In this document: in pieces, positions 6,560 to 64,000 of the stretch
How the letters are laid out: the number at the start of each line of letters is the position of its first letter
How positions within the stretch are numbered: position 1 is the first letter of the stretch
NCBI GenBank assembly: GCA_009843635.1
Contig: VYDB01000078.1
Span: forward strand, 63,656-127,655
Source of the DNA: Gammaproteobacteria bacterium
GTDB lineage: Bacteria; Pseudomonadota; Gammaproteobacteria; Pseudomonadales; Azotimanducaceae
Length of the DNA: 64,000 nucleotides
Direction: 5' to 3'
The notes under the pieces: generated by a model
The model's database searches: none
Told to the model about the DNA's origin: nothing
The model's input: the letters and a program-made list of their open reading frames with translations, nothing else
Position numbers and translations under genes: made by a program

Positions 6560-9043
6560 CTAGCACCGAACGCGGCGGTTTTGGGGGTCGTAGAAGGGCG
6601 TTAGCGACGCCAGCGCCGGGATGCGCACGCCAGCCACTTCGATCTCAAAGGCGGCGCTTTCGATTTCGGAGGGGTCCGCCGCCAGCGATCCGGTCACGTA
6701 GCCGAGGCCGATGGCGCCGCCCAAGGTGTGGCCGTAGTTCCCGGACCGGATGTAGCCCGCAATCTGGTCGCCGCACCAGATCGGCTCATTGTGATGGAGC
6801 AGGGGTTCGGGGTCGCTCAGCTTGAACTGGACGAGGCGCTTGGCAAGGCCCTGCTCCCGCTGTCGAAGCACCGCTTCGCGGCCGATGAAGCCGCCGGGTT
6901 TGTCGAATTTGAGGGTGAAGTCGAAGCCGGCTTCCAGTGGCGAGTCCTCGTCGGTGATGTCGTGGCCCCAGTGCCGGTAGGCCTTTTCGATGCGCAGCGA
7001 GTCCAGCGCATGGTAGCCGGCCTGGACCAAGCCGAAAGCGTCGCCCGCTGCGGTGATTTCATCGTAAACGCCGGCGGCGAATTCCGTCGGTATGTACAGT
7101 TCCCAACCCAGTTCCCCCACGTAGGTGATGCGCGAAGCGCGAACCAGCGCATGGCCCAGCTCAATCTCTCGGCTGGTGGCGAACCGGAATGCCTCGTTGG
7201 ACAGGTCCGCCGGCGTCAACGACTGCAGCAACGCCCGGGCATTGGGCCCCATCAGCGAAATCACGCCTAGGCCGGAGGTCAGGTTGGTCAGCACGCAGCG
7301 CGCATCCGGCGGGATGTGGCTTTTAAGCCAGTGGAAGTCGCGCACTTCGGTGGCAGCGGCGGTGACCACGAGAAAGCTGTCTTCGCCGAGGCGGGTCACG
7401 GTCAGGTCGGCCTCTATGCCGCCCCGTTCGTTCAGCCACTGGGTGTAGACGATGCGGCCCGGGCGCACATCGACGTTGTTGGTGCAAACCCGGTTCAACA
7501 CCTGCGCCGCATCCCGACCCTCCAGGCGGAATTTGGCGAACGATGACTGATCGAAAAGACCCACTTGGGTGCGCACCCCCCGGTGTTCGGCGGCGGTGCG
7601 CTCGAACCAATTGCCGCGGCCGTAGCTGTACTCATAGCGGGGCGTTGTGCCCGGCTGGGCGTACCAGTTTGGGCGTTCCCAGCCCGCCGCTTCGCCGTGG
7701 CAGGCCCCGGCCGCGACCAACCGGTCGTGCAGGGGTGAGCGGCGAACGCCGCGCGCGGTTTCGAACTGGCGGTGCGGGAAGTGCGTGGCGTAGAGCAGGC
7801 CCAAGCTCTCGGAAACCCGTTCGCGCAGGTACTTGCGGTTGCGCTGGAAGGGCATGTTGCGGCGCACGTCCACCTCCCACAGATCGGCCGGAGGATGGCC
7901 GGCGCTTATCCAGTCCGAGACGACCTTGCCGATGCCGCCGGCGGATTGCAGGCCGATGGAGTTCAAGCCTGCGGCAACGAAGCAATTGCCGTACTCGGGC
8001 GCCTGGCCGATGTGGTAGCGAACATCCGGGGTGAAGCTCTCCGGGCCGCAGAAGAACTTCTGGATGCCGGCCCGCTCCAGCGCCGGCAGGCGCGCCATGG
8101 CGCCGTGGAGAATTGGCTCGAAATGATCGAAGCTGCCGGCGATTTCATCGAAGCTGAAGTCTTCCGGAATGCCATCGGCACCCCAGGGCCGGGCTTCGGG
8201 TTCGAAGGCGCCGACCAGCAGCTTGCCCGCATCGTACTTGTAATAGGTGCAGGCGTCGTAGTCCCGCACGACCGGAAAGTCCGGGTTCAGGCCTTCGACG
8301 GATTCAAACAGGGCATAGTAGTGCTCGCAGGCGTGCAGCGGCACGTTGACGCCGATGGAAGCCGCCAGGTCGCGGGTCCACATGCCCGCGCAGAGGACGA
8401 CGCAGTCGGCATCGACTTCGCCGTGCGCGGTGGCAACGCCGGTGACGCGGCCTTTGGCGGTTCGGATGGCGGTTACCGGCGCGTTCTCGACAATGCGCAC
8501 CCCGGCGTTGCGGGCGCCCTTGGCAAGCGCCTGGGTGATGTCCACCGCGTTGGCATAGCCGTCCGTCGGGATGTGGATGCCGCCAAGCACGTCGTCGGTG
8601 TTCAGCAGCGGAACCCGGCCCTTGATCGCCCCAGGCGTCAGCACCTGCACTTCCAGCCCGAACACCTTGGCCATGGAGGCGCTGCGCTTAAGTTCCTCGA
8701 ACCGCTCCTCGTTGGTCGCCAGCGAGACCGAGCCGCAACGGCGGTAACCCGTCGCCTGGCCAGTCTCGGCTTCGAGCTGGTCGTACAGTTCCCGCGTGTA
8801 GCGGGCGAGATGGGTCATGTTGACCGACGGCCGCAGTTGGCCGATCAAACCGGCGGCGTGCCAAGTGGTGCCGGACGTGAGCTGCTGCCGTTCGAGCAAC
8901 AGAACGCCGGAGCGGTTGGCACGGCCGAGATGGTAGGCGATGGAGCAGCCGATGACACCGCCGCCGATGACAACCACCGCCGCCCGACGTGGCAGCGTCG
9001 GCTGGCGCGGGAGCGCGCCCGCTTTTTCCTCCGCATTGGCCAT
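6560..9043 (-). CDS. FAD-dependent dimethylglycine/sarcosine dehydrogenase-like protein (DAO + GcvT)
   Basis: 827 residues. The N-terminal DAO oxidoreductase has the dinucleotide motif VVVIGGGVIGCSIAYHLG (24-41) and SGTTWHAAG; His62 is at the position that binds FAD covalently in mammalian dimethylglycine dehydrogenase. A middle FAO_M-like part follows, then a C-terminal aminomethyltransferase (GcvT) domain (VGLFDQSSFAKFRLEG; YVGELGWELYIP) that would bind tetrahydrofolate. The family oxidatively demethylates N-methyl amines and passes the one-carbon unit to folate. It is last in a minus-strand run, 18 bases after a paralogue of the same layout. The exact substrate (dimethylglycine, sarcosine or another N-methyl compound) cannot be read from sequence. 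Confidence 0.85.
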   Translation of the reverse strand: MANAEEKAGALPRQPTLPRRAAVVVIGGGVIGCSIAYHLGRANRSGVLLLERQQLTSGTTWHAAGLIGQLRPSVNMTHLARYTRELYDQLEAETGQATGYRRCGSVSLATNEERFEELKRSASMAKVFGLEVQVLTPGAIKGRVPLLNTDDVLGGIHIPTDGYANAVDITQALAKGARNAGVRIVENAPVTAIRTAKGRVTGVATAHGEVDADCVVLCAGMWTRDLAASIGVNVPLHACEHYYALFESVEGLNPDFPVVRDYDACTYYKYDAGKLLVGAFEPEARPWGADGIPEDFSFDEIAGSFDHFEPILHGAMARLPALERAGIQKFFCGPESFTPDVRYHIGQAPEYGNCFVAAGLNSIGLQSAGGIGKVVSDWISAGHPPADLWEVDVRRNMPFQRNRKYLRERVSESLGLLYATHFPHRQFETARGVRRSPLHDRLVAAGACHGEAAGWERPNWYAQPGTTPRYEYSYGRGNWFERTAAEHRGVRTQVGLFDQSSFAKFRLEGRDAAQVLNRVCTNNVDVRPGRIVYTQWLNERGGIEADLTVTRLGEDSFLVVTAAATEVRDFHWLKSHIPPDARCVLTNLTSGLGVISLMGPNARALLQSLTPADLSNEAFRFATSREIELGHALVRASRITYVGELGWELYIPTEFAAGVYDEITAAGDAFGLVQAGYHALDSLRIEKAYRHWGHDITDEDSPLEAGFDFTLKFDKPGGFIGREAVLRQREQGLAKRLVQFKLSDPEPLLHHNEPIWCGDQIAGYIRSGNYGHTLGGAIGLGYVTGSLAADPSEIESAAFEIEVAGVRIPALASLTPFYDPQNRRVRC

Positions 9044-9061
9044 CGTTCAGCGACCCGTGCG

Positions 9062-11509
9062 TTAAGCCCTAAGCCGCTTGCTGGCAGGATCGTAGGCCGG
9101 GGCATCGAGAATGCTCATCCGGCGCCGCTCGCCGAGCAGGCGGACTTGCAGATCGGTGCCGGGAGCGGCCAGAGCCGGCGGTACGTAGCCGAAACCCAAG
9201 CTCTTGCGAACGTAGTGGCCGTAGGCACCGGACGTGGTGACCCCGACGCAGCGTTCGCCAGTGAAAATCGGCTCACCGCCGCGCACATCCGAGTCCCCCG
9301 CTTCCACCTCGAAATAGATGAGCCGCAAGGGTTGCCCATCCGTTTGGGGCCCCGCATTGGCGGCCGCCTCGGCGGCGCGCAAGGTCGCCGCCTTGCCGAC
9401 GAAATCCGCCTTGTCGAGCTTGATGAAACGCGCCATGTCAGCTTCGAGCATGTTCACCTCGTTGGTCAATTCCGCGCCCCAACTTCGATACGCCTTCTCC
9501 ATTCTCAAGCTGTTGACGGCATACAAGCCGAAATTGGCGATGTCGAAAGCCGCGCCGGATGCCATGACAGCGTCGTACACCGCTTCCATATCCGCCATCG
9601 GAGGGTGCAGTTCCCAACCCAGTTCACCCACGTAGTTGACGCGCAAGGCCCGCACCGGCTTGCCCGCCACCTGGATTTCCTGGCCGCTCAGCCAACGGAA
9701 CGCACGGCTGTCGAGGGGGGCTGCGGTGAGCTTCGAGAGAATCTCCCGGGAACGTGGGCCAGCGAGCACCAAGACGCCGCGCTCATCGGTGACGTTGGCC
9801 ACCTGCACGCGCTCGCCCGGCCGTCGCGCCTCGCGCAGGCGGTCGAGATCGCGCACTTCGGCGGCAGCCGCGGAAAGCACGTAGAAGTGATCGTCGGCCA
9901 AGTGGGTGATGGTCAATTCGCCGCCGATGCGGCCTTGCTCGGACAGATGGTGGGTCAGCACGATGCCGCCGCCCTGGGGCATTCGGTTGGCGCAGACCCG
10001 GTTCAGGAAGGCGCGGGCATCGGGGCCGGTGACGTCGAACTTGGCGAAGCCGGACAGGTCGAGCGCACCGGCGCGTTCGCGGACCGCGAGGCATTCATCC
10101 CGAACCACTTCAAACAGGTTGTTGCGGCGGAAGCTCACGTCCTCTTCCCGGCCGTCCAACGAGAACCACTGGGGCCGCTCCCAGCCGAAGGTCTCCGTGT
10201 GGACGCCGCCTTGGGCAATCAGCTTGCCATGCAGCGGACTGGTGCGGACCTCGCGTGCGGCGGGCAATTCCTCCCCGGGCATCGGCGTGAAGTAGGTCCT
10301 AGCGTAGTCCTGACGGCCCTTCGCCTTCATGTAGCCGGCATCGGCGAAGGCCCCGAAGCGGCGGGGGTCGAAGCCGGTCATGTTGATCTCCGCATCGCCT
10401 TCCAGCATCCATTGGGCCAAGTACTTGCCGCAGCCCGCACCCTGGGCGATGCCGAAGGATGATCCGCAACAGAACCAGAAGTTGCGCAAGGCCCCGACGG
10501 GGCCGAGCAGCGGCGGGCCGTCGGCGCTGTGCGGTATGGCGCCGTTGACGATGCGCCGGATGCCAGCGGACTCAAAAATCGGTATGCGCCCCATCGCGCG
10601 TTCCAGCCAAGGCATCAGGCGCTCGAGGTCGTCGGAAAACAGTTCGCTGTCGGAATCCCAGGGCGGCAACCCCTCGGGCGGCCAGGCCTCGGCCAAATTG
10701 TCGTGCTCATAGATGCCGATCAGGCCGGATTGCTGCTCCTGGCGCAGATAGGCGGAAGCGTATGGGTCGCGAATGACGGGCACCTCCGTGTCGCGTCCGG
10801 CAAACTCCGCAACCGGTCCAGAAACCAGGTAGTGATGCTGGATGTTGCAGATCGGCGCATCGGCGCCGACCATCCCCGCCACCTGCCGGGCGTAGCAGCC
10901 CGCGGCGTTGACCACCTGTTCGGCAATCACCCGCCCCTGTTCCGTGATCACTTCCCACTCCCCGGACGGGCGGGCGTTGATGGCGGTTACCCGGTTGTGG
11001 CGAACGATTCGCGCGCCCATTTGCCGGGCGCCCCGTGCCATGGCATGGCAGAGCCCTGCCGGGTCGGCATGGCCATCGTCCGGCGTCCAGGCGCCGGCGA
11101 GCACGCCGTCCAGGTTCACGAACGGATGCAGTTCGCGAATCTTGCCGACATCAATGATCTCCATGGGGAAGCCCACGCTTTCCGCAATGCCGCGCACGGT
11201 TTCGAACCAATCGAGGTCACGCTGGGTCAACGCGAACCGAATGCTCCCCGACGTGTGCCAGCTCACAAACTGGCCGGTGATTTCCTCAAGGCGTTTGTAG
11301 AGCGAAATGCTGTAGTCGTGGATCTTGGCGAGGTTGTAGTTGCCCACGAGGTGGGGGCATTGGCCCGCCGCGTGCCAAGTGGATCCCGAGGTGAGTTCCG
11401 CCTTCTCGATCAGCAACGCGTCGGTGCAGCCCTGCTCGGCGAGGTGGTAGAGCAACCCAGCCCCCATGATGCCGCCACCGACAATGACTATGCGGGCTTG
11501 GTCGTCCAC
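9062..11509 (-). CDS. Second FAD-dependent dimethylglycine/sarcosine dehydrogenase-like protein
   Basis: 815 residues with the same DAO + FAO_M + GcvT layout as its neighbour: IVIVGGGIMGAGLLYHLAEQ, SGSTWHAAG with the FAD-linking His, and C-terminal GALDLSGFAKFDVTG and YVGELGWELHPP. GTG 11507-11509 is chosen as start because a strong GGGAGGGGG site lies just upstream; ATG 11528-11530 would add seven residues with no such site. The two paralogues differ across most of their length, so this is not a recent duplication; they may act on successive methyl groups or form a complex. The aldolase gene ends 82 bases upstream on the same strand. Confidence 0.85.
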   Translation of the reverse strand: MDDQARIVIVGGGIMGAGLLYHLAEQGCTDALLIEKAELTSGSTWHAAGQCPHLVGNYNLAKIHDYSISLYKRLEEITGQFVSWHTSGSIRFALTQRDLDWFETVRGIAESVGFPMEIIDVGKIRELHPFVNLDGVLAGAWTPDDGHADPAGLCHAMARGARQMGARIVRHNRVTAINARPSGEWEVITEQGRVIAEQVVNAAGCYARQVAGMVGADAPICNIQHHYLVSGPVAEFAGRDTEVPVIRDPYASAYLRQEQQSGLIGIYEHDNLAEAWPPEGLPPWDSDSELFSDDLERLMPWLERAMGRIPIFESAGIRRIVNGAIPHSADGPPLLGPVGALRNFWFCCGSSFGIAQGAGCGKYLAQWMLEGDAEINMTGFDPRRFGAFADAGYMKAKGRQDYARTYFTPMPGEELPAAREVRTSPLHGKLIAQGGVHTETFGWERPQWFSLDGREEDVSFRRNNLFEVVRDECLAVRERAGALDLSGFAKFDVTGPDARAFLNRVCANRMPQGGGIVLTHHLSEQGRIGGELTITHLADDHFYVLSAAAAEVRDLDRLREARRPGERVQVANVTDERGVLVLAGPRSREILSKLTAAPLDSRAFRWLSGQEIQVAGKPVRALRVNYVGELGWELHPPMADMEAVYDAVMASGAAFDIANFGLYAVNSLRMEKAYRSWGAELTNEVNMLEADMARFIKLDKADFVGKAATLRAAEAAANAGPQTDGQPLRLIYFEVEAGDSDVRGGEPIFTGERCVGVTTSGAYGHYVRKSLGFGYVPPALAAPGTDLQVRLLGERRRMSILDAPAYDPASKRLRA

Positions 11510-11611
11510 TGCACCCCCTCCCGTCTGCATAATGTGTCAAGGGTTCAAACCAATCCTTGCGCCGCCCGACTTCCTTGAACGCTTCCGCGACCAATCGCCG
11601 CGGCCACCACT

Positions 11612-51346: not shown

Positions 51347-52498
51347 GTGATCAGGCAGTATCTGGGCGCCCTGCTCGTTCTCGCTGTCGGCGTCGGCGTG
51401 GCCGCGTTGATCGTGGCCACCGGCCCAACGACCGTCAAGCAACCGAGCCGGCCAGACATTCCGGTCGTGCAGGCAACGCCCGTGCAGCCCCGGTGGGTGC
51501 AGATGACGGTTCGCGCGCACGGCGAAGTGATCCCCAAAACCGAAAGCAACTTGGTTGCGGAGGTGGCGGGGCGGGTCGTCAGCGTGGCGCCGGCGATGGT
51601 CTCCGGCGGCTTTTTTGCCAAGGACGACGTTCTGGTTGAAATCGAAAGCGTCGACTACCGGGTCGCTCTCGAACAAGCGCGGGCGCGCCTGGCATCGAGG
51701 CGCAGTGACCTCGATACCGCCGAAAAGGACTTCGACCGACTCGAGGAATTGGCCAAGACCCAATTCGTCAGCGAGTCGGCGCACGATGCTGCGTCCAATC
51801 AGCTTGCCGTGGCGAGCGCGGCATTGCGCTCGGCCCAGGCCAGCTTGGAGCGGGCCGAACGCGACCTGGCCCGCACTCAGATCACGGCGCCCTATGACGG
51901 CCGGGTGCGCACGGAACGGCTGGACGTGGGCCAATTCGTGAACCGTGGCGAAACAATCGCTGCCCTCTACTCCATCGACTACGCGGAAGTGCGGCTGCCG
52001 ATCCGCGATGTCGATCTTGCGTTCCTGCCGCTTTCCCTGGCGAACCGGCAAAACGATGAGCCGCCGCCCAAGGCAAGATTGCGCGCGGAGTTCGCCGGAG
52101 CGGAACACTTCTGGGTTGCCGACGTGGTGCGCACGGAAGGCGAACTGGATCCGCTTACCCGCATGGTCAACGTGGTTGCGCAGGTGCCGAAGCCCTACGA
52201 ACCCGCCGGCGCCTCGCCGCCCTTGACCGTCGGCCTGTTCGTTGAAGCGGAGATCTTTGGCAATTGGGTCGAGGATGTCTTCATCGTGCCGCGCACGGCG
52301 CTGCAGGAAGGCGGCAAGGTCTATGTCGTGGCGGATGACGGCCGCCTCTCGTTTCGCGACGTGGCGGTGTTGCGCAGGACCGGCGAGACCCTTTACCTGC
52401 AAGGCGAGTTGGAATCCAGCGAAGTGGTCTGCCTTTCGCCGCTCGCCAACGCGACCGAAGGGCAGCGCGTTCGCACCATCCTGGCCAGTGAGGCCTAG
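51347..52498 (+). CDS. RND efflux periplasmic adaptor (membrane-fusion protein) 1
   Basis: 383 residues. An N-terminal anchor helix (YLGALLVLAVGVGVAALIVA) is followed by the MFP layout: lipoyl halves (VAEVAGRVVSVAPAMVSGGF; ITAPYDGRVRTERLDVGQFV), an alpha-helical hairpin (ARASRRSDLDTAEKDFD region) and beta-barrel. GTG 51347 follows CGGAGAGG. It would link an RND pump to an outer-membrane channel. It is first of five genes: two adaptors and three permeases. Confidence 0.9.
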   Translation: MIRQYLGALLVLAVGVGVAALIVATGPTTVKQPSRPDIPVVQATPVQPRWVQMTVRAHGEVIPKTESNLVAEVAGRVVSVAPAMVSGGFFAKDDVLVEIESVDYRVALEQARARLASRRSDLDTAEKDFDRLEELAKTQFVSESAHDAASNQLAVASAALRSAQASLERAERDLARTQITAPYDGRVRTERLDVGQFVNRGETIAALYSIDYAEVRLPIRDVDLAFLPLSLANRQNDEPPPKARLRAEFAGAEHFWVADVVRTEGELDPLTRMVNVVAQVPKPYEPAGASPPLTVGLFVEAEIFGNWVEDVFIVPRTALQEGGKVYVVADDGRLSFRDVAVLRRTGETLYLQGELESSEVVCLSPLANATEGQRVRTILASEA

Positions 52499-52618
52499 CC
52501 GGATTTCTTGTTGCGCAAAAGTGCGCTAGCATTCCCGCATTGATGCAGCAACGATCGGTTCGGGCGAGTGGGGAGGCCCGCGCTTGGACCCTGGACGCGA
52601 CTGAGGGGGAGCTTGAAC

Positions 52619-53785
52619 ATGGCGGAGTCGGGTGACGACAATCAGGATTCCGGGCAGCAGCAGCGCTGGCGCGGCATTCTCCAACTGGCGATCATCGTTG
52701 CGGTGATCCTGGCGGCGATTTTCTTCGCCCGCGCACCTAGCCGTGAATTCCTCGAACTGGATCCCGAACTGGCCGAGGTCCGCGTCACCCCCACCGCCGC
52801 GGTAATCGAGCCGACAGCGACCCCCGCATCCCACAAGGTGGTGTTGACCGGCACGGTGACGACCTTGGGCAATGTGTCAGTCCGGTCCGAGACTTCAGGG
52901 CAAGTGGTGTGGGTGTCCGAGAACTTCCGCAGCGGCGCCGAGTTCAAGGCTGACGAAACTTTGGCGCGGGTCGATGCGCGGGACATGGAGCTGATGCTCG
53001 CAAACGCCAAGCTCGGGCTGGTTGCCGCCCAGGAAAACCTCAAGCAGAGGCGCGACGAGGCAGCGCGAGCGCCGCAATTCCTGCAGCGGTTCCCCGGCGG
53101 GCATTTGAACCCGTGGCTCGCCACCGAAGGGACCATCGAAGAAGCCGAGGCACTGGTCGAAATCGCCCGCAACAACGTCAAGCTCGCCGAAATCGAACTG
53201 GACGAAACGAGGATCCGGATGCCGTTCGACGGCTATGTGCGAAAGACGGTGCTGTCCCGAGGGCAGGTGGTCGAACGGCTGGTCTCCGATCTCGGGACTG
53301 TCTATGCGAAGCATCAATTGCGGGTGCGCGCCCGCATTTCGGCATTCGACCTGAATTCCCTGCAGCCGGTCATCGGCCGCAAGGCCGTCGTGGTCGCCAA
53401 CGGCCAGGCCATTGACACGGTGGTCGAGCGCGTCTCGAAGGAAGTCGATATCGAGACGCGATTGGCCAGCCTGTACCTCGAGGTGCTCGACCAAGAGAAC
53501 GCGGCCATGCTGCCGCCTCCCGGCACCTTTGCGGACGTGACCGTGCAAGGGCCGATGCAGGACGACGTGTTCGTGCTGCCCGAATCGGCGTTGCAGATCA
53601 GCGGCAGCGTCTGGCTGGTCGATGACGGCCAGCTCACCGCGTACACCCCCGCTTCGGTGGGGTACAGCGACGGCGGTTGGCTGGTCCGTGCGTTCGATAC
53701 CCGTGATGGCATCGTGGTGGGCCGCGTACCGGGAGCGCGCGAAGGCCTCGGCGTGAACGCCGTGCCCGCCGGAGCGGCGCAGTAG
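52619..53785 (+). CDS. RND efflux periplasmic adaptor 2
   Basis: 388 residues from ATG 52619, behind GAGGGGGAG. One N-terminal membrane helix (GILQLAIIVAVILAAIFFA) leads to a HlyD-like adaptor: VRSETSGQVVWVSENFRSGAEF, a helical hairpin (AQENLKQRRDEAARAPQF) and RIRMPFDGYVRKTVLSRGQVVE. It is quite different from adaptor 1, so the two may pair with different permeases or form a mixed ring. RND permease 1 starts 43 bases downstream. Confidence 0.9.
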   Translation: MAESGDDNQDSGQQQRWRGILQLAIIVAVILAAIFFARAPSREFLELDPELAEVRVTPTAAVIEPTATPASHKVVLTGTVTTLGNVSVRSETSGQVVWVSENFRSGAEFKADETLARVDARDMELMLANAKLGLVAAQENLKQRRDEAARAPQFLQRFPGGHLNPWLATEGTIEEAEALVEIARNNVKLAEIELDETRIRMPFDGYVRKTVLSRGQVVERLVSDLGTVYAKHQLRVRARISAFDLNSLQPVIGRKAVVVANGQAIDTVVERVSKEVDIETRLASLYLEVLDQENAAMLPPPGTFADVTVQGPMQDDVFVLPESALQISGSVWLVDDGQLTAYTPASVGYSDGGWLVRAFDTRDGIVVGRVPGAREGLGVNAVPAGAAQ

Positions 53786-53827: not shown

Positions 53828-56800
53828 ATGGCTGAATCCGCAAGCATCGGTGATCCGGACGCCGGCGCGCGCGTGGGCGTCATCGCCTACTTCGCCCGCA
53901 ATCCCGTCGCCGCCAACGTACTCCTGTTCCTGCTCTTCGTTGGCGGGCTGATCGCCTCCGACCTGATCACCCTCGAGACATTCCCCGAATACGACCCCCG
54001 CGTCATCCGCGTCGAAGTGCCCTATCCGGCCGCAACCCCGGCGGAGGTCGAGGAAGACATCGTCAAGCGCATCGAGGAAAGCCTGGTGGGCACCATTGGC
54101 ATCGCCCGCACCATCTCCAGCTCCCGCGAGGAACGGGCCGTCGTCGATGTGGAGATGGAACCCTTCGCTGACGACATCGACACCCTCAATTTCGTGCGCA
54201 CGGCCATCGAGCGCATCGAGGACTTCCCGCCGCTCAACGCCGATGAGCCGGAAGTGACCAAGGTCGAGGTCAGCCGCAAGGTGCTGACGATCGCCTTGAG
54301 CTCCGGGGCGCTCGACCCCTTCGAGTTGCGTCACGCCGCGGAGTCGCTGCGGGACCGGCTGCTGCTGCTGCCCAGCATATCGATCATCGATCTGTTCGGG
54401 ACGAAGGACCAGGAGATTCAAGTCGAGCTCAGCGAAGAGACCCTACGCCAGTACGGCATCACCCTGGACCACGTGGTGAGCGCCATCCGGCGGACGTCGG
54501 TGAACGTCACCGGCGGCGAACTGCGCACCGGGTCAGGGGACATCATCATGAGCACCCTGGCCAAGCGCGATTACGCCGACCAATTCGACGACGTGGTGGT
54601 CCTTGCCCGGCCGGACGGTTCGCTGGTGCGCCTCGGCGACATCGCGGAACTGCGCGACAGCCTGCTCGAACACGACGCCGTAGCCACCGTCAACGGCGTC
54701 CCCACCATATTTCTCCAAGTCAAGGTCTCCGCCGACACCTCCCCCCAGGAAGCAAGCGCCCAGGTGCGCGACTACCTAGACGGCTTCGAGGCACCCGCAA
54801 CCGTCGGGGTGGCCATCTGGGAAGATGAGACTTGGGCGGTCGAGGACCGCATGTACTTGATCATCAAGAACGGGATCTTCGGCCTGATCCTGGTGTTCGC
54901 CACCCTCATGCTCCTGTTCGACCTGCGCGTAGCGACTTGGGTGGCGCTCGGCGTTCCCGTGGTGTTCGTGGCCTCGCTGATCGTCTTTCCTTTCTTTGGC
55001 CTCACCCTGAACGTCATGACGCTGTTCGCGTTCTTCATACTGATCGGCATCGTCGTGGACGACTCGATCGTGGTGGGCGAGAACATCGCGATGCGCTTGG
55101 ATCGAGGTGAAACCGGCGCCGAGGCCGCCATCGCCGGCACCCGGGAAGTCATTGCTCCCATTGCGGTCGGCGCCTTCACCACCATGGCGGCATTCGCGGC
55201 GCTGCTGCCGCTCGACGGGCTGATCGGCCAGATGTTTGCCGTGATCCCGATCGTGGTGGTGGTCGTGCTGCTGTTGTCCCTGTTCAAGGCGGCCTTCATT
55301 CTGCCTGGCCATCTCGCAAAACCTGGGCGCTGGAGCGCCTGGCCCCTGTCCGCAGCGCAGGAACGGTGTCACGCCGTCGCCCAGGCCATGATCGAGACCA
55401 GGATCGTTCCCCTGATCTCCTGGTCGGTGCGGCGCTTGCAATGGCCGCCGGTCATCGTCGCCGGCAGCGTTCTCGTTACCGCCTGCCTGCTGGTGTTCGG
55501 GGGCGTTCATTTCGACCCGAGCTTAAGGGTGGTGGACGAGAAAAACGTGCAGGTTGACCTAGTGCTGCCCCAGGACGCACGGCCCGAGGACCTGCAAGCC
55601 GTCACGGACCATGCGGTCGCGGCGGCGCAACGGGTGGACGCTGAGCTTGGCGGGCGGGTGATCGACGCGGTCGCGGTGGCCATCGGCCACCACTTCCCCG
55701 TGGAATCCTATCGCGGCGCGGATGCGCGTCAGTACCGCAGCAATCTGGCCTCCGTGCAACTGCGGCTCAATCCGCCCGAGGTGCGCGGCGTTACCATCGA
55801 AGAACTGCAGCACCGCTGGCGCCAGCGCCTGGCCCGCATGCCTGGCGTCGAGTCGGTGAGCTTCCCCACCCGGCAGACGCAGACATCGAATAGCCTGTCG
55901 TACGCATTGATGCATCCGGATCCACAGGTGCTTGCCGATGCCACCGAGGAGTTGCACGCGGCGCTCGCCCGCTTGGACGGCGTCAGCCAAGTCAACGACT
56001 CGATCGAGCAAGGCAAGCGCCGCTTCGATGTACGCCTCAACGCCGCCGGCGATACAGCCGGCCTGACCGCGGCATCGGTTGCCACCCAGTTGCGCAACAG
56101 CTTCTACGGCGCCGAGGCCCAGCGCATCCAGCGGGGCCGGGAAGAGGTTCTGGTGATGGTGAGGTACCCCCAGGATCGGCGCTCCAGCTACGCGGAGTTG
56201 CTCAACGAGCGCATCAACCTGCCGGCCAGCCGGGAGCAGGTTCCGTTGTACACGGTGGCCGAGATCACGGAAACCCGCAGCATCGCCAACCGGCTGCGCA
56301 TAGACGGGCGCAGCGCCGCGGTGGTTAGTGCCGACTACGATGCCGCGCGCTTGCTCTCCGGCGACTTGGCCGACGTGGTTGAGGAGCGGATTCTTCCAGA
56401 CCTCCAGAGCCGCTATCCGGAGATCCGAATTCGCAAGCACGGGGCAAACCGGGACATGGAACGCCTTACCGGCATCCTGACGCTTTCGGTGCCGATCGCA
56501 CTCTTGGTCATATATTGCCTGATCGCCTCCTTCCTGCGCAGTTTCGTGCAGCCGTTGCTGGCCCTAGCGGGCATTCCCATGGCATTCGTGGGCGCGGTGG
56601 CGGGGCACTTGGCGCTGGGTTACGAGTTCAGCATCACATCGATATTCGGCCTGCTCGCGGTTTCCGGCGTGGTCGTCAACGACACGATTCTACTGATGTA
56701 TCGCTACAACCACATGGTCCGAGAATCCGGCATGCCTGAGATTGCGGCAATTTCCGCGGCCACCCGGCAGCGTGCCCGGGCGATCCTGCTCACCAGCGTG

Positions 56801-56992
56801 ACCACCCTGCTCGGCCTGCTGCCGATTCTGTTCAGCGGCGACGAGGCCATTCGGTTCCTGATTCCGCTCGTGGTGAGCATCGCCTTCGGCTTGGTGTTCG
56901 CCGGCATCGGCCTGGTGTTCTTCCTGCCATCGGTCATCATGACGGTGGAACTGGCGAAAGGGCGGCTTGGCCGACGGCGGCTGGTGGGCTGA
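53828..56992 (+). CDS. RND efflux permease 1 (HAE-1/AcrB family)
   Basis: 1054 residues, full length with 12 membrane helices and two periplasmic porter domains. ATG 53828 has AGGGAG upstream. The TM4 proton-relay pair is in GIVVDDSIVVGEN (Asp411-Asp412). Typical elements include PAATPAEVEEDIVKRIEESL and the end GLVFAGIGLVFFLPSVI. It exports drugs, metabolites or lipids by proton exchange. Its stop is 35 bases before permease 2. Confidence 0.93.
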   Translation: MAESASIGDPDAGARVGVIAYFARNPVAANVLLFLLFVGGLIASDLITLETFPEYDPRVIRVEVPYPAATPAEVEEDIVKRIEESLVGTIGIARTISSSREERAVVDVEMEPFADDIDTLNFVRTAIERIEDFPPLNADEPEVTKVEVSRKVLTIALSSGALDPFELRHAAESLRDRLLLLPSISIIDLFGTKDQEIQVELSEETLRQYGITLDHVVSAIRRTSVNVTGGELRTGSGDIIMSTLAKRDYADQFDDVVVLARPDGSLVRLGDIAELRDSLLEHDAVATVNGVPTIFLQVKVSADTSPQEASAQVRDYLDGFEAPATVGVAIWEDETWAVEDRMYLIIKNGIFGLILVFATLMLLFDLRVATWVALGVPVVFVASLIVFPFFGLTLNVMTLFAFFILIGIVVDDSIVVGENIAMRLDRGETGAEAAIAGTREVIAPIAVGAFTTMAAFAALLPLDGLIGQMFAVIPIVVVVVLLLSLFKAAFILPGHLAKPGRWSAWPLSAAQERCHAVAQAMIETRIVPLISWSVRRLQWPPVIVAGSVLVTACLLVFGGVHFDPSLRVVDEKNVQVDLVLPQDARPEDLQAVTDHAVAAAQRVDAELGGRVIDAVAVAIGHHFPVESYRGADARQYRSNLASVQLRLNPPEVRGVTIEELQHRWRQRLARMPGVESVSFPTRQTQTSNSLSYALMHPDPQVLADATEELHAALARLDGVSQVNDSIEQGKRRFDVRLNAAGDTAGLTAASVATQLRNSFYGAEAQRIQRGREEVLVMVRYPQDRRSSYAELLNERINLPASREQVPLYTVAEITETRSIANRLRIDGRSAAVVSADYDAARLLSGDLADVVEERILPDLQSRYPEIRIRKHGANRDMERLTGILTLSVPIALLVIYCLIASFLRSFVQPLLALAGIPMAFVGAVAGHLALGYEFSITSIFGLLAVSGVVVNDTILLMYRYNHMVRESGMPEIAAISAATRQRARAILLTSVTTLLGLLPILFSGDEAIRFLIPLVVSIAFGLVFAGIGLVFFLPSVIMTVELAKGRLGRRRLVG

Positions 56993-57026
56993 CCTTTCGA
57001 GCATCATTGGGAAGGGGTCGCCATCG

Positions 57027-60000
57027 ATGATCGAGTACTTCGCGCGCAACCACATCGCCGTGTACCTGATCACCTTCCTGCTGCTGGTGCTCGGGTTCAT
57101 CGCGATCTCCAACAGCACCATCGAACGCTATCCGGAGCTCGACCTTCGAACCATCGCGGTGAACGTGCCCTACGACGGCGCAACGCCGCGGGAAGTCGAG
57201 GAGGACATCATCCGCCGCATCGAGGAGAGCATCGCCGGCCTCGATGGGATTGACCGGATCACCGCCAACGCCTGGGAGGGCCGGGGCGAGATTCTCATTG
57301 AGCTGAACCAGTGGGTCGATGCCGTCTCAAGGCTGGAGATCGTGCGAACCGCGGTGGAGCGAATCGAGGACTTCCCTCCCCCGAACGCCGACCCGCCGGA
57401 AGTGGTTCGCAAGGAAATCGTCAGGGACGTGGCGTCGCTGGTGGTCACGTCGCCAACCGCCGGTGAGGACCGGCTTCGGCGGGCGGCTGAGGATCTGCGC
57501 GAACAGCTTCTGCTGCTGCCCAACGTCGGCCTCGTCGAACTGGTCGGCGCGCGGGATCGGGAAATTCAAATCGACCTCGACGAATCGCAACTCCGCAGCC
57601 ATCACCTGACCATCGCCGAAGTCGCGGCGCGCGTTCGGCTGGCCTCGGTGAACGTCACCGGCGGCGGCATTCGCACGGAGTCCGGGACCATCGTCATGAG
57701 CACGATGGACAAGCGGGTCAGAGGGGATGAGTTCCGTGACATCGTCATGCTCAGCCGCCCGGATGGCGCCATCATCCGGCTCGGCGACATGGGCACCGTC
57801 CGCGACGGCTTCGTCGATGACCCGCTGATCAACACCGTCAACCAGGTGCCGGCGGTGTTCGTTCACGTCCAAGCGCCGCCCCGCGCCAACCCGGACGACG
57901 TCATCGCCGAAGTCGAGCGTTTCATGGCCGGCTACCAAGCGCCGCCAGGAACCTCGGTCGAGCTCTGGCTGGACGAAACCTACAAGATCAAGAAACCGCT
58001 TCAGTCCGTCGCCAACAACGGCGTGATCAGCGCGATGCTGGTCTTCGTCGTGCTGATCCTGCTGTTTGATCTGCGCATCGGGCTCTGGATCGGCATCGGC
58101 ATCCCCACCGCGATCATCGGATCCTTCATTATTTTGTACCTGCTGGACGTCTCCATCAGCTTTTTCATCGTCTACGGCGTGGCCATGATCATCGGCATCG
58201 TGGTGGACGATGCGATTGTCGTGGGCGAAAACATCGCCCGCCTGCGCGCGCGCGGCGTTCCCCCCCTCGAAGCATCGATCCAAGGCGCCCGGGAGGTGCT
58301 GCCGCCGGTGCTGGTCGGCGTGCTGACCACCATGGTGGCGTTCTCGGTGCTGCTGCCACTCGACGGCATCCTCGGCCAGATGTTCAGCTACACCGGCATC
58401 GGCGTATTGGCCGTGCTGCTGCTGTCGCTGATCGACTGCTTCCTGCTGTTGCCCGCGCATCTTTCCGGGGGCAGTCCGCTCAGCCGCTGGCCCCTTAGCG
58501 CGGTTCAGGCTCGAGCCAGCGGGTCATTCCAAGCGTTGCTCGACCGCAGACTGATGCCCAGCATCGGATTCGCAGCGCGCCGTCCGCTGCTCACCATTGC
58601 CGGCGTCGCCCTGTTCGTCATCGTCGCGATCGGCCTTTTCTCCGGCAATGTCCTGCGCTACAACACGGCGGACAACCGGCTCGACGAGCAGAAGCTGCAG
58701 GCCGACCTGACCATGGCGGCCGGGTCAACTTTCGAGGACACGGTGCACGCCACCGAGCAGATCGTCCGGGCCGCGCGGGCTGCCAATCGGGAATCCGGCG
58801 GGACGGGGATCAACGCCGTCAACCTGATCGTCGGGCAGCACAAGGCGGTGGAAACCATGCTCGGCGCCGATGTGCCCGACCCGGCGCCCAACCTCGCTTC
58901 GGTCCAACTGCGCCTGAACGTGCCGCCGGAACGGACCATAATCACCGACGAACTCAAGCAACTGTGGATCGACAACATCGGCACGATACGCGGTGCGGAC
59001 AAGCTGGCGTTTCCCTCGACGCGGACCGCCACCGCCTCAAGCGTGGGGTACGCGCTGCTGCACCCCGACGCCGACACCGTGGTCGCTGCGGCGAGCGAAT
59101 TGAAGGCCCGGCTTGAGGACCATCCCTATGTTTACCAGATCGACGATACCCTCGAGTTGGGCAACGTCCGCTACGAAGTCCAGCTCACGGACGCAGGACG
59201 CGCCTCAGGCCTGACCGCCATTTCGCTTGCCGGGCAACTGCGCAACCGGTTCTACGGCTCGGAGGTGGACCAGATCGTGAGGCACTCGGAAGAGCTCGAG
59301 GTCATGGCGCGCTATCCCTTGGAAAGGCGCGCCAACATCAGCGATCTTCACGATGAACTCATCAGCTTGCCAAACAGCGACGTGGCTGCCCTGTCGAGCG
59401 TGGCGCAGATCGTGCAGACCCAGGATCTCAAGCAGCGCCAACGCATCGACGGCCTGCCGGCGGCCTCGGTCAATGCCTTCTACAACGTGGCGATGATCAG
59501 TTCCAGGGAACTCGGCGGGCTCATCGAGGGTAGCTGGCTGCCGGAACTCAAGCACAAGTATCCGGATCTGCGCATCCTGCCCGACGGTTCCAGCCGCGAT
59601 GCCGCCAAGGTTGGCCGAAGCCTCGCCACCTACTTCCCGGCCGCCGTGTTGTTGATTTTCGTCCTCGCCGCCATCCAGTTGCGCAGCATCCTGCAACCGT
59701 TCTACGTGCTGCTCGGCGTCCCGCTGGCGTTTGCCGGCTCCATTTACCTGCACTGGATGCTTGGATACGACCTGTCGCTCTCCTCCATTTTTGGACTGAT
59801 CGCGGTGACCGGCGTGGTCATCAACGACTCTCTGGTGCTGCTCGACCGCTACAACCGGATGCGCCGCGATGATCCGCGGCTGGGCGTGAGCGATGCCATC
59901 ATCCAGGCAGCGCAACTCCGCGCCCGGCCAATCGTGCTGACCACGGTGACCACCGTGGTCGGCCTGTCGCCCCTGCTTTACGACAAGTCCGAGGTGCTGC

Positions 60001-60158
60001 GATTTCTCATTCCCCTCGTCGTCAGCCTGACCGGCGGGCTGATCTTCGCGAGCATCGGCATCCTGTTCCTGCTGCCCGCCATCATGGTCCTGGTCGAAAG
60101 GCTGCGCGCCCTGCTGGCGGAGCGATTCGGCCAACCCGCAGCAACCGCCGCACCATGA
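57027..60158 (+). CDS. RND efflux permease 2 (HAE-1/AcrB family)
   Basis: 1043 residues from ATG 57027, with AAGGGG upstream. It is a complete RND permease: GATPREVEEDIIRRIEESIAG, proton relay GIVVDDAIVVGEN (Asp394-Asp395), and the C-terminal GLIFASIGILFLLPAIMVLVE. It is clearly divergent from permease 1, so not a recent copy. It ends in an ATGA overlap with permease 3, which implies coupled translation of the last two pumps. Confidence 0.93.
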   Translation: MIEYFARNHIAVYLITFLLLVLGFIAISNSTIERYPELDLRTIAVNVPYDGATPREVEEDIIRRIEESIAGLDGIDRITANAWEGRGEILIELNQWVDAVSRLEIVRTAVERIEDFPPPNADPPEVVRKEIVRDVASLVVTSPTAGEDRLRRAAEDLREQLLLLPNVGLVELVGARDREIQIDLDESQLRSHHLTIAEVAARVRLASVNVTGGGIRTESGTIVMSTMDKRVRGDEFRDIVMLSRPDGAIIRLGDMGTVRDGFVDDPLINTVNQVPAVFVHVQAPPRANPDDVIAEVERFMAGYQAPPGTSVELWLDETYKIKKPLQSVANNGVISAMLVFVVLILLFDLRIGLWIGIGIPTAIIGSFIILYLLDVSISFFIVYGVAMIIGIVVDDAIVVGENIARLRARGVPPLEASIQGAREVLPPVLVGVLTTMVAFSVLLPLDGILGQMFSYTGIGVLAVLLLSLIDCFLLLPAHLSGGSPLSRWPLSAVQARASGSFQALLDRRLMPSIGFAARRPLLTIAGVALFVIVAIGLFSGNVLRYNTADNRLDEQKLQADLTMAAGSTFEDTVHATEQIVRAARAANRESGGTGINAVNLIVGQHKAVETMLGADVPDPAPNLASVQLRLNVPPERTIITDELKQLWIDNIGTIRGADKLAFPSTRTATASSVGYALLHPDADTVVAAASELKARLEDHPYVYQIDDTLELGNVRYEVQLTDAGRASGLTAISLAGQLRNRFYGSEVDQIVRHSEELEVMARYPLERRANISDLHDELISLPNSDVAALSSVAQIVQTQDLKQRQRIDGLPAASVNAFYNVAMISSRELGGLIEGSWLPELKHKYPDLRILPDGSSRDAAKVGRSLATYFPAAVLLIFVLAAIQLRSILQPFYVLLGVPLAFAGSIYLHWMLGYDLSLSSIFGLIAVTGVVINDSLVLLDRYNRMRRDDPRLGVSDAIIQAAQLRARPIVLTTVTTVVGLSPLLYDKSEVLRFLIPLVVSLTGGLIFASIGILFLLPAIMVLVERLRALLAERFGQPAATAAP

Positions 60159-63100
60159 AAAAGATGATCGCTTGGTTCGCCACCAATCACGTGGCGGCGA
60201 ACCTCGTGATGGGATTTTCTGTCTTTGCGGGCCTGGCCGCCCTGGATCGCATCCCCGTCAAGCTCTATCCCGATGTGGACCCGCCCCTGATCATCGTAAC
60301 GGTCCCCTACCTGGGCGCCGCCCCCGAAGAGGTCGAATCCGGGGTCTGCACCCGCGTCGAGGAGAGCTTGGAGGGCATCACCGGAATTCGGGAAATACGT
60401 TCAGCCTCGGTTGAGGATCTGTGCACCGTTCAAGTCGAGATGTTCTTTGACACCGATCGCATGCGAACGCTTGGCGAGGTGGAAAACCAAATCAACGCGA
60501 TCGACACGTTTCCGGAGGAGGCCGAGAAGCCCATCGTCAAGCTGGCAACCGTCAGGAACGTGGTGATCGAAGTCGCCGTAACCGGGTCGATGGACGAACG
60601 CTCGCTCAAGGAGATGGGCCGCCGGGTGCGCGACGACCTGCTCAGGCTGCCCGGCATCAGCGAAGCCGCCATCGTCAACGAAAAACCCTATGAAATTTCC
60701 ATCGAGGTCTCCGAAGCCTCCCTTTCGCGCAACAACCTGACCTTCGATGACGTCGCGGAGGCCGTGCGCGAACGCTCGCTGGATTTGCCTGGGGGCTCGG
60801 TGAAGACCGACCGGGGCGACATCCTGCTGCGCACGGCAGGGCAGGCCTACTGGGGGCACGAACTGGAAAAGCTCACCATCAGCACCCGCAGCGATGGCAC
60901 GCGGGTCACGCTCAACGATGTGGCCCAAGTGGTCGATGGATTCGAAGACACCGGGCAGGGCTTGACGTTCGAGGGCCAGCCCGCCGCCTTGGTGCAGGTG
61001 TTCCGGGTCGGCGACCAGGATGTGCGCAACGTCGCCGCGACCGTTCGACAGTTCGTGGCGGAGGCCCCCTCCGACTACCCGGCGGGCGTTGAGCTTACGG
61101 TGTGGCGGGATGCCTCCGTGACGCTCGCCTACCGCCTGCAGGCGCTGCTGGACAGCGGCGTGCAAGGGCTGCTGCTCGTGCTGATCCTGCTCGCGCTGTT
61201 TCTGCGCCCGCACCTGGCGCTGTGGGTGGCCGCCGGAATTCCCATCGCCTTCCTCGGCGCCATCTTTCTCATCTACTGGTTCGGCTATTCCATCGACTCC
61301 CTGTCCGTCATGGGCTTCATCCTCGCCTTGGGGATGATCGTGGACGACGCCGTGGTGGTGGGGGAAAACGTCTATTCGGCCCAGGAAAGGGGCGGCGGCA
61401 AACTCGCCGGCGCCATCCAGGGCGCCCAGGACGTCCTGGTGCCCGTCACCTTCGGCGTGATTACGACCACGGTGGCGTTCCTGCCGCTGCTGTTCGCCGT
61501 CGGCAGCGTCGGCCAAGCCTACGGGTTCATGGCCGTCGTGGTCATCTGCTGCCTGGTGTTTTCCCTGATCGAGTGCCAGATGGTGTTGCCGTCGCATCTC
61601 GGCCACGGCAGCGGCCGCATGCCGCTCGGCGACTTCGGCCTAACGCTGCTCGCAACCGGCGTCATCGCCGCCTTTGCGTTCGCCCCGGACATGCGCTCCG
61701 GTTCCGCAGTGGCCGTGGTCGTCTTCGCCGGCGTGTGCGCAGCCCACGTTTCCGGCTTCATGAACAAGGCTGCGGCCGGGTTTGCCCGCATCCAGGTGCT
61801 GTTCGAATCGGGCCTCGCCTGGTTGATCAACAACCCCTTTCGCCAACTCGCCAGCGCCGCATTCCAGCAGCGGTTCGTGACCTTTGCGGCGGGCATCGCG
61901 ATCTTCGCATCGGCCATGGCATTCCTGGCGGGCGGCCACCTGCCGTTCTCCCTCCTGACGCCCCAGACGGGGGACAGCGTGGTTGCCAAGCTGACGATGC
62001 CCATGGGCGTCTCCCGGCCGGTCATGGAGCAAGCCCTGGCGCAACTGTCGAATGCGGCGCAGGAAGTGCGCCAAGAACTTGAGGATCGCTACGACGAACC
62101 CGTGGTGGTGAACCTCATGGAGGCCCGGGGCGGACAATTCGCCGCTAGCGCGGGCCTGAGCTACCGCACAGACGCTGTCGGAACCCACCTCGGCGAGGTC
62201 ATCATGCAGTTGACCCCGGGCGAGACGCGGGCCTTGGCGACCGATGAGGTGGCCGCCTTATGGCGTGACCGGGTTGGGCCCATAGCGGACGCGGTCGAGG
62301 TGGCCTTCGTCACCGACCGCATCCAAGGCGCACCCGAAATCGACATACGCATCGGCGGCACCGATTCGGAGGCGATGCGCAGCGTCGCTGCGGCCATCCG
62401 CCAGGAACTCGCCGAGTTTCCAGGGGTTTACGAAGTTACCGACTCATTGAACAGCGGCAAGCCGGAAATGATCCTGACGGTCACGCCAGCCGGAGAGGCA
62501 TTGGGCATCACGCTGGCGGACCTGGGAACCCAGGTGCGGCAGGCGTTCTATGGGGAGGAAGCCCAGCGCATCCAACGCGGCCGGGATGACATTCGCCTCA
62601 TGGTGCGCTACACCGAGCAGGAGCGCCGCTCCCTGGACTCGCTCTACGACCTGCGCATCCGCACCGCGGACGGCGGAGAGGTGCCCTTCACCACGGTGGC
62701 CGAAGTGCGGTACGGACAGGGCTTCCCCGTGATCGAACGCACCAACGGCACGCGTTTTGCGTGGGTGACCGCCGAGGTCGATCCCTCGGTGACTTCGGGG
62801 ACCGCGGTGCTCGCCGCACTCGATTCCGGATTCCTGCAAAGCACCGTCGCCCGGCATCCCGGTGTCTCCTACTGGTTCAAGAGCGCCGAGGAGCAGTCGG
62901 AACTGGCCGGCACCCTAGGGCCGCTGTTCCTCTTCGTGGTGCTGGCCATCTACGCGCTGCTCGCCATGCCGCTGGGCTCCTACACGCAGCCCCTGATCAT
63001 CATGTCGGTGCTGCCATTCGCCCTGGTCGGCGCCATTTTCGGCCATGTGCTCATGAAGTCGTTCGGGCTCCTCCATGCCCTGTCCGTCAACTCCCTGTTC

Positions 63101-64000
63101 GGCGTCGTCGCGGCAGCGGGGGTCGTGGTCAACTCGACGTTGGTGTTGATTCACGGCGTCAATCAATATCGGTCCGGGGGGGATTCGCTGCAGGACGCGC
63201 TCGTGAACTCGGCCACCTCCAGATTCCGCCCAATCCTGATCACCACAGCGACGACGTTCGCCGGGTTGACCCCACTGATGGTGAACGACAGCACCCATGC
63301 GCAATTTCTCGTTCCCATGGCAACCTCGTTGGCGTTCGGCATCTTGGTTTCCATGCCGGCGGCGCTGTTGGTGGTGCCGGCCATCTGGCTGGTCAGCCAA
63401 GATGCCATCAGCGGCACCAAGCGGATTTCAAGCCGCTTCGGAAACGTCATCGGCGCGGCGCCGCGCCTCTCCGCCTGGTTGTCCCGCCACCCCTACGTGC
63501 AGGAGAGCCTGCGTTCCCAGGAATTCCAAGCGGCGGACCTACCGGGCCAGCGCGACCTCGAAGCAGCCCAAGCCACCCACCGGCAAGAAGCGTGGCGGAC
63601 GCCACCAGGGCAGGCCCGCCTGCTTTGCCAAAAGGAGTTCGATCCGAGCGAACTGCGCGAGCAATTCGCCGCCGTCGCCGACCGGGCGTCGGGCAGCGAC
63701 AGCTTGGTCAACGAGGCCAGGAGCTGGGCTGAGCAGCACACCATTCGACTGGGCGTGCACATGACCCGGGGCGTGCTGACGCCGGTGGCAGCTGCACAGT
63801 CCATATCGGACATCCTGGACATCTGCCTCGCCGCCCTTGTGCCCGTCGTTAAAAACGAGTTCGAACTCGCCCACGGCGACATGCCCAACAGTCGTATCGG
63901 CTTGGTCGCCCTTGACGCCGCGGGCCGGCGCGAGTTGGCCAACGGGGCGCCTCTCGAGCTGATGTTCATCTACGATCACGACCCGGTGCGGGCCAACGCC
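60155..64000 (+). CDS. RND efflux permease 3 fused to a GlnE-like adenylyltransferase domain (3' end outside window)
   Basis: At least 1282 residues, open to the window edge. ATG 60155 overlaps the permease 2 stop. Residues 1 to about 1085 form a full RND permease: YPDVDPPLIIVTVPYLGAAP, relay GMIVDDAVVVGEN (Asp397-Asp398) and final helices LVSMPAALLVVPAIWLVS. From about 1090 the frame continues as a GlnE-like segment: LSRHPYVQESL, a helical stretch, then GLVALDAAGRRELANG and PLELMFIYDHDP, which align to the GlnE nucleotidyltransferase strand (GKLGGREL...DLDLIFLYD). The two metal-binding Asp of DxD are Pro and Glu here. No known pump needs such a domain; the fusion may regulate it or be a decayed GlnE. 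Confidence 0.8.
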   Translation, partial: MKKMIAWFATNHVAANLVMGFSVFAGLAALDRIPVKLYPDVDPPLIIVTVPYLGAAPEEVESGVCTRVEESLEGITGIREIRSASVEDLCTVQVEMFFDTDRMRTLGEVENQINAIDTFPEEAEKPIVKLATVRNVVIEVAVTGSMDERSLKEMGRRVRDDLLRLPGISEAAIVNEKPYEISIEVSEASLSRNNLTFDDVAEAVRERSLDLPGGSVKTDRGDILLRTAGQAYWGHELEKLTISTRSDGTRVTLNDVAQVVDGFEDTGQGLTFEGQPAALVQVFRVGDQDVRNVAATVRQFVAEAPSDYPAGVELTVWRDASVTLAYRLQALLDSGVQGLLLVLILLALFLRPHLALWVAAGIPIAFLGAIFLIYWFGYSIDSLSVMGFILALGMIVDDAVVVGENVYSAQERGGGKLAGAIQGAQDVLVPVTFGVITTTVAFLPLLFAVGSVGQAYGFMAVVVICCLVFSLIECQMVLPSHLGHGSGRMPLGDFGLTLLATGVIAAFAFAPDMRSGSAVAVVVFAGVCAAHVSGFMNKAAAGFARIQVLFESGLAWLINNPFRQLASAAFQQRFVTFAAGIAIFASAMAFLAGGHLPFSLLTPQTGDSVVAKLTMPMGVSRPVMEQALAQLSNAAQEVRQELEDRYDEPVVVNLMEARGGQFAASAGLSYRTDAVGTHLGEVIMQLTPGETRALATDEVAALWRDRVGPIADAVEVAFVTDRIQGAPEIDIRIGGTDSEAMRSVAAAIRQELAEFPGVYEVTDSLNSGKPEMILTVTPAGEALGITLADLGTQVRQAFYGEEAQRIQRGRDDIRLMVRYTEQERRSLDSLYDLRIRTADGGEVPFTTVAEVRYGQGFPVIERTNGTRFAWVTAEVDPSVTSGTAVLAALDSGFLQSTVARHPGVSYWFKSAEEQSELAGTLGPLFLFVVLAIYALLAMPLGSYTQPLIIMSVLPFALVGAIFGHVLMKSFGLLHALSVNSLFGVVAAAGVVVNSTLVLIHGVNQYRSGGDSLQDALVNSATSRFRPILITTATTFAGLTPLMVNDSTHAQFLVPMATSLAFGILVSMPAALLVVPAIWLVSQDAISGTKRISSRFGNVIGAAPRLSAWLSRHPYVQESLRSQEFQAADLPGQRDLEAAQATHRQEAWRTPPGQARLLCQKEFDPSELREQFAAVADRASGSDSLVNEARSWAEQHTIRLGVHMTRGVLTPVAAAQSISDILDICLAALVPVVKNEFELAHGDMPNSRIGLVALDAAGRRELANGAPLELMFIYDHDPVRANA

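Follow-up and report, generated by a model that had tools for sequence, protein, structure and literature searches.

GlnE is a soluble enzyme that acts on glutamine synthetase, and its adenylyltransferase (AT) half recognizes a loop of another protein. In HAE-type RND permeases both termini lie on the cytosolic side of the membrane, as is established for AcrB. We know of no HAE-type RND pump that carries a large cytosolic domain, and none was met with in the open-access papers that we searched. The nearest functional analogy to the protein described here is offered by the PII-controlled transporters, AmtB with GlnK and SbtA with SbtB, in which a trimeric transporter is placed under a nitrogen or carbon signal protein (PMC10710835); in those systems control is exerted by a PII protein distinct from the transporter, whereas the GlnE-derived tail considered here is covalently part of the permease, and any contact with PII is hypothetical. 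Our search of the open-access (PMC) literature returned no paper that joins RND with GlnE and none that joins NHLP or YcaO with a desaturase. As far as we have found, a portable GlnE-derived tail on membrane proteins looks to be undescribed.

The fusion gene and its row

The DNA analyzed, referred to as the window, is a stretch of 64,000 nucleotides (G000:C95:63656-127655) from a 4.49-Mb draft genome, G000, that is 96% complete. At its right edge an open frame on the plus strand (60155..64000) runs out of the window with zero stops, 1,282 of its 1,551 codons lying inside and the rest past the edge. In the assembly, which is identical to the window over all 3,846 shared bases of the gene, the frame stays open for 810 bases more, GlnE homology continues along it, and the stop falls at L009:11464-11466 (gene L009:6811-11466; product 1,551 aa). 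The first-pass annotation had proposed an RND permease fused in frame to a GlnE-like domain, a proposal borne out by the 1,551-aa frame and by Pfam, NCBIfam, and structure-profile matches, all positive, to the residues beyond the RND part; it was right that the frame continues past the permease, but its figure of about 190 residues for the extension was too short, the full gene giving about 455 aa.

The product consists of a complete RND permease (residues 1-1078; 60155..63388, +), a 19-residue linker, LVSQDAISGTKRISSRFGN, leading from the last RND helix to the pseudo-adenylyltransferase (63389..63445, +), and a GlnE-homologous domain of approximately 450 aa, of which the first 185 residues (1098-1282; 63446..64000, +) lie in the window and the whole extends to about residue 1529. 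The end of the permease was set by its ACR_tran match and an alignment of the junctions of fused and unfused orthologues, and the latter also delimits the linker. The Pfam ACR_tran match (E 5.5e-144) covers both halves of the model, signifying full-length RND homology, and the paired aspartates (DD) of the TM4 proton relay are at residues 397-398, within VDDAVVVGENVY (residues 396-407). Scores fall under the named-subfamily cut-offs of NCBIfam (RND_permease_2, 405 versus 1250). In its complete ACR_tran region, its TM4 DD, and its adjoining adaptor genes the protein resembles HAE-type permeases of the MdtB/MdtC-like kind; it differs from them in the C-terminal domain of some 450 aa, putatively cytosolic, since unfused orthologues end soon after the last helix.

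Two genes for HlyD-type periplasmic adaptors and then three RND genes, all on the plus strand, make up the row, and the fusion comes last. The first adaptor (51347..52498, HlyD_3) is a homologue of the adaptor found directly upstream of other RND fusions, and the second (52568..53785) is likewise of the HlyD_3 family. They are succeeded by an unfused RND permease at 53828..56992 and by another at 57024..60158, whose start was picked by eye in an open reading frame listed from 56967. The latter gene shares 4 bases (ATGA) with the fusion gene, and the two likely belong to one operon. Elsewhere in the window, on the minus strand (6560-11530), are two tandem FAD oxidoreductase-GcvT genes resembling dimethylglycine or sarcosine dehydrogenases.

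The RND-GlnE fusion is real. The same genome encodes a second, paralogous RND fusion of the same layout on contig C79 (L010:7310-11908; 1,532 aa), and in other assemblies the layout recurs in over 20 frames; together these exclude the frameshift or missed stop between 63400 and 63500 that the first-pass annotation had named as its possible undoing. The pseudo-AT parts of the window and C79 fusions are 43% identical, and in the C79 fusion and its relatives the gene order is adaptor-fusion beside adaptor-RND.

Identity and descent of the C-terminal domain

The domain corresponds to the C-terminal, AT half of GlnE. Pfam GlnE (PF03710) matches residues 1164-1365 (E 1.5e-10; 41 bits, where the cut-off is 24), and the NCBIfam model of alpha-type GlnE, PRK14108, matches residues 1165-1515 along model positions 619-972 (E 1.1e-35). 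The score of the fused gene against PRK14108, 122.6 bits, lies below the NCBIfam cut-off of 724 bits, so that this is not a full bifunctional GlnE, in which an AR and an AT half are joined; only an AT-type half is present. A profile built from 18 fused domains matched the E. coli GlnE AT half (PDB 3k7d) with E 1.1e-21 but its deadenylylating counterpart (1v4a) only with E 2.3e-7, a difference that, with the phylogeny described below, rules out the N-terminal (AR) half to which the extension had at first been assigned. An AlphaFold model of the domain from three sequences was poor (mean pLDDT 53.5), and the only Foldseek matches to this poor model at E <= 0.001 were the E. coli GlnE halves, 1v4a and 3k7d_A. 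Judged from sequence, the extension is one complete AT half, with the conserved start helix, the nucleotidyltransferase fold, and the helical part, and homology to the E. coli and PRK14108 proteins spans essentially the whole half. It departs from them in being attached to a membrane protein, in lacking the catalytic aspartates, the GK motif, and the AR half, and in a stretch of about 30 residues near its start that has no GlnE counterpart.

The genome holds a third copy of the domain, at the end of a membrane protein of the FA_desaturase family (C140, L018:12446-14845; 799 aa), and two GlnE genes besides. A separate, intact glnE, for which the first-pass annotation had advised looking, is present on contig C89 (L019): it is gamma-type, with both active sites intact, and sits between ilvE-like and waaF-like genes. 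The other GlnE (C47, L020:3227-6133), also found in six relatives of the genus, is alpha-type and full-length; its AR half is intact but its AT half is degenerate (SPLEL). Like the fused domains it has a dead AT half, and it groups with them in the tree at a modest 89/94, a placement that could reflect shared loss of constraint; unlike them it is full-length and unfused, keeps its AR half, and is only about 25-30% identical to them. Both kinds of protein are annotation traps. The fusions will probably be labeled simply as RND or as GlnE, and the C47 GlnE scores just over the NCBIfam bifunctional cut-off (726 versus 724 bits) despite its dead AT half.

A tree built by a careful method from 72 sequences, GlnE halves and fused domains together, places the fused domains in one clade (100/99), inside which the RND-fused and the desaturase-fused sets are each a clade. 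On this phylogeny the fused domains have a single origin. They fall with the C-terminal halves of alpha-type GlnE and outside the gamma-type clade, so that an origin from the genome's own gamma-type GlnE is not favored. In a phylum-wide sample of 398 genomes the best matches to the domain, at up to 204 bits, were likewise the C-terminal halves of GlnE proteins of ordinary length. These belong to another class, and their designation as alpha-type rests on the NCBIfam model and on sequence style; the fused domain itself was not seen in that sample.

Within a sample of 206 genomes of the window's family the fused domain occurs in 4 of 37 genera. RND fusions, in frames of up to 1,995 aa, are found in genera g1, g7, and g52, and desaturase fusions of about 800 aa in g1, g7, g8, and g52. 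Outside the family, genome G169, which belongs to a different family of the order, has a desaturase fusion, and genome G595, from another family of the class, has an 822-aa frame with a copy that was assigned to the desaturase type by its length and tree position. No convincing free-standing copy appeared in the genomes searched, the full-length copies being carried on one or other of the two membrane-protein hosts. In another family of the class, a GlnE (L092, G651:C6:102872-103750) lies in a 1,722-aa open frame, which is either a further fusion or an open upstream frame.

Unfused full-length orthologues of the RND part (roughly 48-54% identity; frames of about 1,085-1,175 aa) are present in many other genera of the family, and in the junction alignment their C-termini end where the domain of the fused proteins starts. 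The fused proteins occupy one strongly supported clade of the RND tree, which came from a quick search with SH-aLRT support only. Since that clade includes only two unfused members, both from g52, one gain and one loss suffice. These two, L147 and L148 (L164, L165), are RND orthologues whose frames terminate at the junction; no pseudo-AT was found downstream of them, and on sequence grounds they are cases of secondary tail loss. The desaturase part, by comparison, was found at 48% identity or more only in fused form; the homologues next in line are unfused and do not exceed 37% identity.

Lost catalytic residues and retained constraint

The metal site of the window copy reads APLEL in place of SDLDL (residues 1265-1269, window 63947-63961), within a degenerate nucleotidyltransferase strand, LVALDAAGRRELANGAPLELMFIYD (63902..63976, +), whose counterpart in GlnE is GKLGxxE...SDLDL. 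Its three catalytic sites are occupied by P, E, and a non-acidic residue, the third lying beyond the window edge. From the replaced DxD (PLE) alone the domain had already been suspected of being non-catalytic; the third catalytic aspartate is lost as well. Among 49 fused copies the first aspartate (D1) and the third (D3) are never retained (0/49 each), the second (D2) is retained in six, all of the desaturase type, and no copy has all three. In the RND-fused copies none of the three positions is ever an aspartate, D1 is proline in 21 of 26, and the GK of the nucleotidyltransferase motif is gone as well. Every catalytic aspartate is present in the AT halves of the sampled GlnE proteins, both gamma-type (38) and other-class (17). 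Given the loss of the metal site, the fused domain is probably non-catalytic, a pseudoenzyme that is nonetheless maintained. The missing aspartates argue against nucleotidyl transfer; they do not argue against the binding of PII or glutamine.

In the five pairs compared, the domain has dN/dS values of 0.21-0.32 and the host parts have values of 0.12-0.15, which rules out a useless, decaying tail, although the L147/L148 group does without one. Conservation is uneven along the domain. Between the RND-fused and the desaturase-fused sets, similarity peaks in an N-terminal module, APRL...EF..L......E....R...EFD (residues 1098-1163; 63446..63643, +), to which the roughly 30 residues lacking an equivalent in GlnE belong: identity is 0.44 and 0.38 across the first 70 alignment columns and 0.20-0.29 across the remainder, which includes the old active site. 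For this reason we infer that the present function resides in the N-terminal module and is one of binding rather than catalysis.

Possible roles of the tail

In sum, the C-terminus of an RND lineage in one family of uncultured gammaproteobacteria acquired a whole AT half of GlnE, catalytically dead and most like the alpha-type GlnE of another proteobacterial class. Purifying selection has maintained the tail through duplication and through spread among at least three genera, and a sister copy is carried by a desaturase- or hydroxylase-like membrane protein encoded in an NHLP/YcaO RiPP cluster. RND topology would put the tail in the cytosol, and a pump trimer would present three of them. Its position, its lost catalysis, and the site of its conservation lead us to favor, with some reserve, a non-catalytic docking or regulatory platform in the cytosol, through which the membrane protein would be tethered to some partner there; binding would more likely take place on the N-terminal module peculiar to this lineage than at the old active site. 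That the same domain is borne by a desaturase-like protein favors a general membrane-protein tail over a pump-specific feature. More tentatively, and with less confidence than in docking as such, we can imagine the dead AT half as a portable adaptor that links unrelated inner-membrane proteins, the RND pump and the RiPP-cluster desaturase, to one common cytosolic partner. That partner might be either PII-type nitrogen signaling or the machinery of peptide maturation, and the efflux pump would then be gated through a pseudo-adenylyltransferase. With a conserved dead GlnE half carried both by a pump and by a membrane enzyme from a RiPP cluster, there is a concrete, testable case of a pseudo-nucleotidyltransferase reused for control or docking, and possibly a direct link between cytosolic signaling and efflux.

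The first-pass annotation had suggested that the fusion could couple nitrogen or nucleotide status to export. One more specific proposal is that the tail binds PII (GlnB or GlnK) or glutamine, with a PII trimer docking on the three tails that an RND trimer would present and so switching export, as GlnK does with AmtB. Its attraction is that GS-ATase is regulated through PII binding (PMC12409994), that PII proteins regulate several transporters, apparently only those able to form trimers (PMC10710835), and that P-II family genes are present in this genome, two of them full and a third matching weakly. Moreover, the helical-part motif GG-x-D-x-E is present in most fused copies, and an ancestral contact with a ligand or regulator could thereby persist, a point that counts against the docking platform we favor. 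We nevertheless judge control by nitrogen status unlikely, for the best-conserved part of the tail is specific to this lineage and largely missing from GlnE, and a desaturase tail in a RiPP cluster suggests no obvious need for such control.

That cluster is of the NHLP/TOMM type (L018:4032-19694, on G000:C140), and similar rows were read at L058-L063. Its conserved order is NHLM ABC1, NHLM ABC2, an NHLP-leader protein with weak similarity to squalene-hopene cyclase, the desaturase-pseudo-AT fusion, a YcaO that carries a TOMM leader-binding domain, an unknown protein, and a tryptophan halogenase. In G002 (L063:7215-11927) desaturase, pseudo-AT, and YcaO make up a single frame of 1,571 aa, YcaO being elsewhere separate and adjacent; this could be a true three-part fusion or a sequence error, and as a single frame it is consistent with a bridging role. 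In G000 a HipA-like kinase gene (HipA_C, Couple_hipA; L018:9497-11092) stands between ABC2 and the NHLP-leader protein, as one does in G002; it is absent from the other loci read.

The company that the desaturase fusion keeps raises the idea that the tail binds an NHLP/YcaO leader peptide or product, bringing substrate to the membrane enzyme in the one host and product for export to the RND pump in the other. The AT half of GlnE, after all, itself recognizes a loop of a second protein, and desaturase fusions were found in about 14 of 17 genomes with RND fusions as compared with about 20 of the 189 others (hand tally; Fisher p approximately 4e-10, confounded by common descent). Even so, this seems to us less probable again than nitrogen control: at the loci read the RND fusions were neither in nor beside a RiPP cluster, the cluster has a leader-binding domain and exporters of its own, and in two genomes with RND fusions no desaturase fusion was detected.

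An enzyme of altered chemistry, performing AMPylation or phosphorolysis through the replaced residues, would fit the retention of the overall fold family and the 3 copies in 49 that hold two acidic residues across the three sites, but with D1, D2, D3, and the GK all gone from the RND-fused set we consider it very improbable. Least credible of all is an assembly error, frameshift, or chance read-through, which the cutting of the gene by the window edge and a broken copy of the region in the relative G002 (L064) might bring to mind, against a junction of identical layout at two paralogous loci here and in many independent assemblies. The orthologue of the window's RND row in G002 (L064:9520-15998) is split into several frames, by either decay or assembly error.
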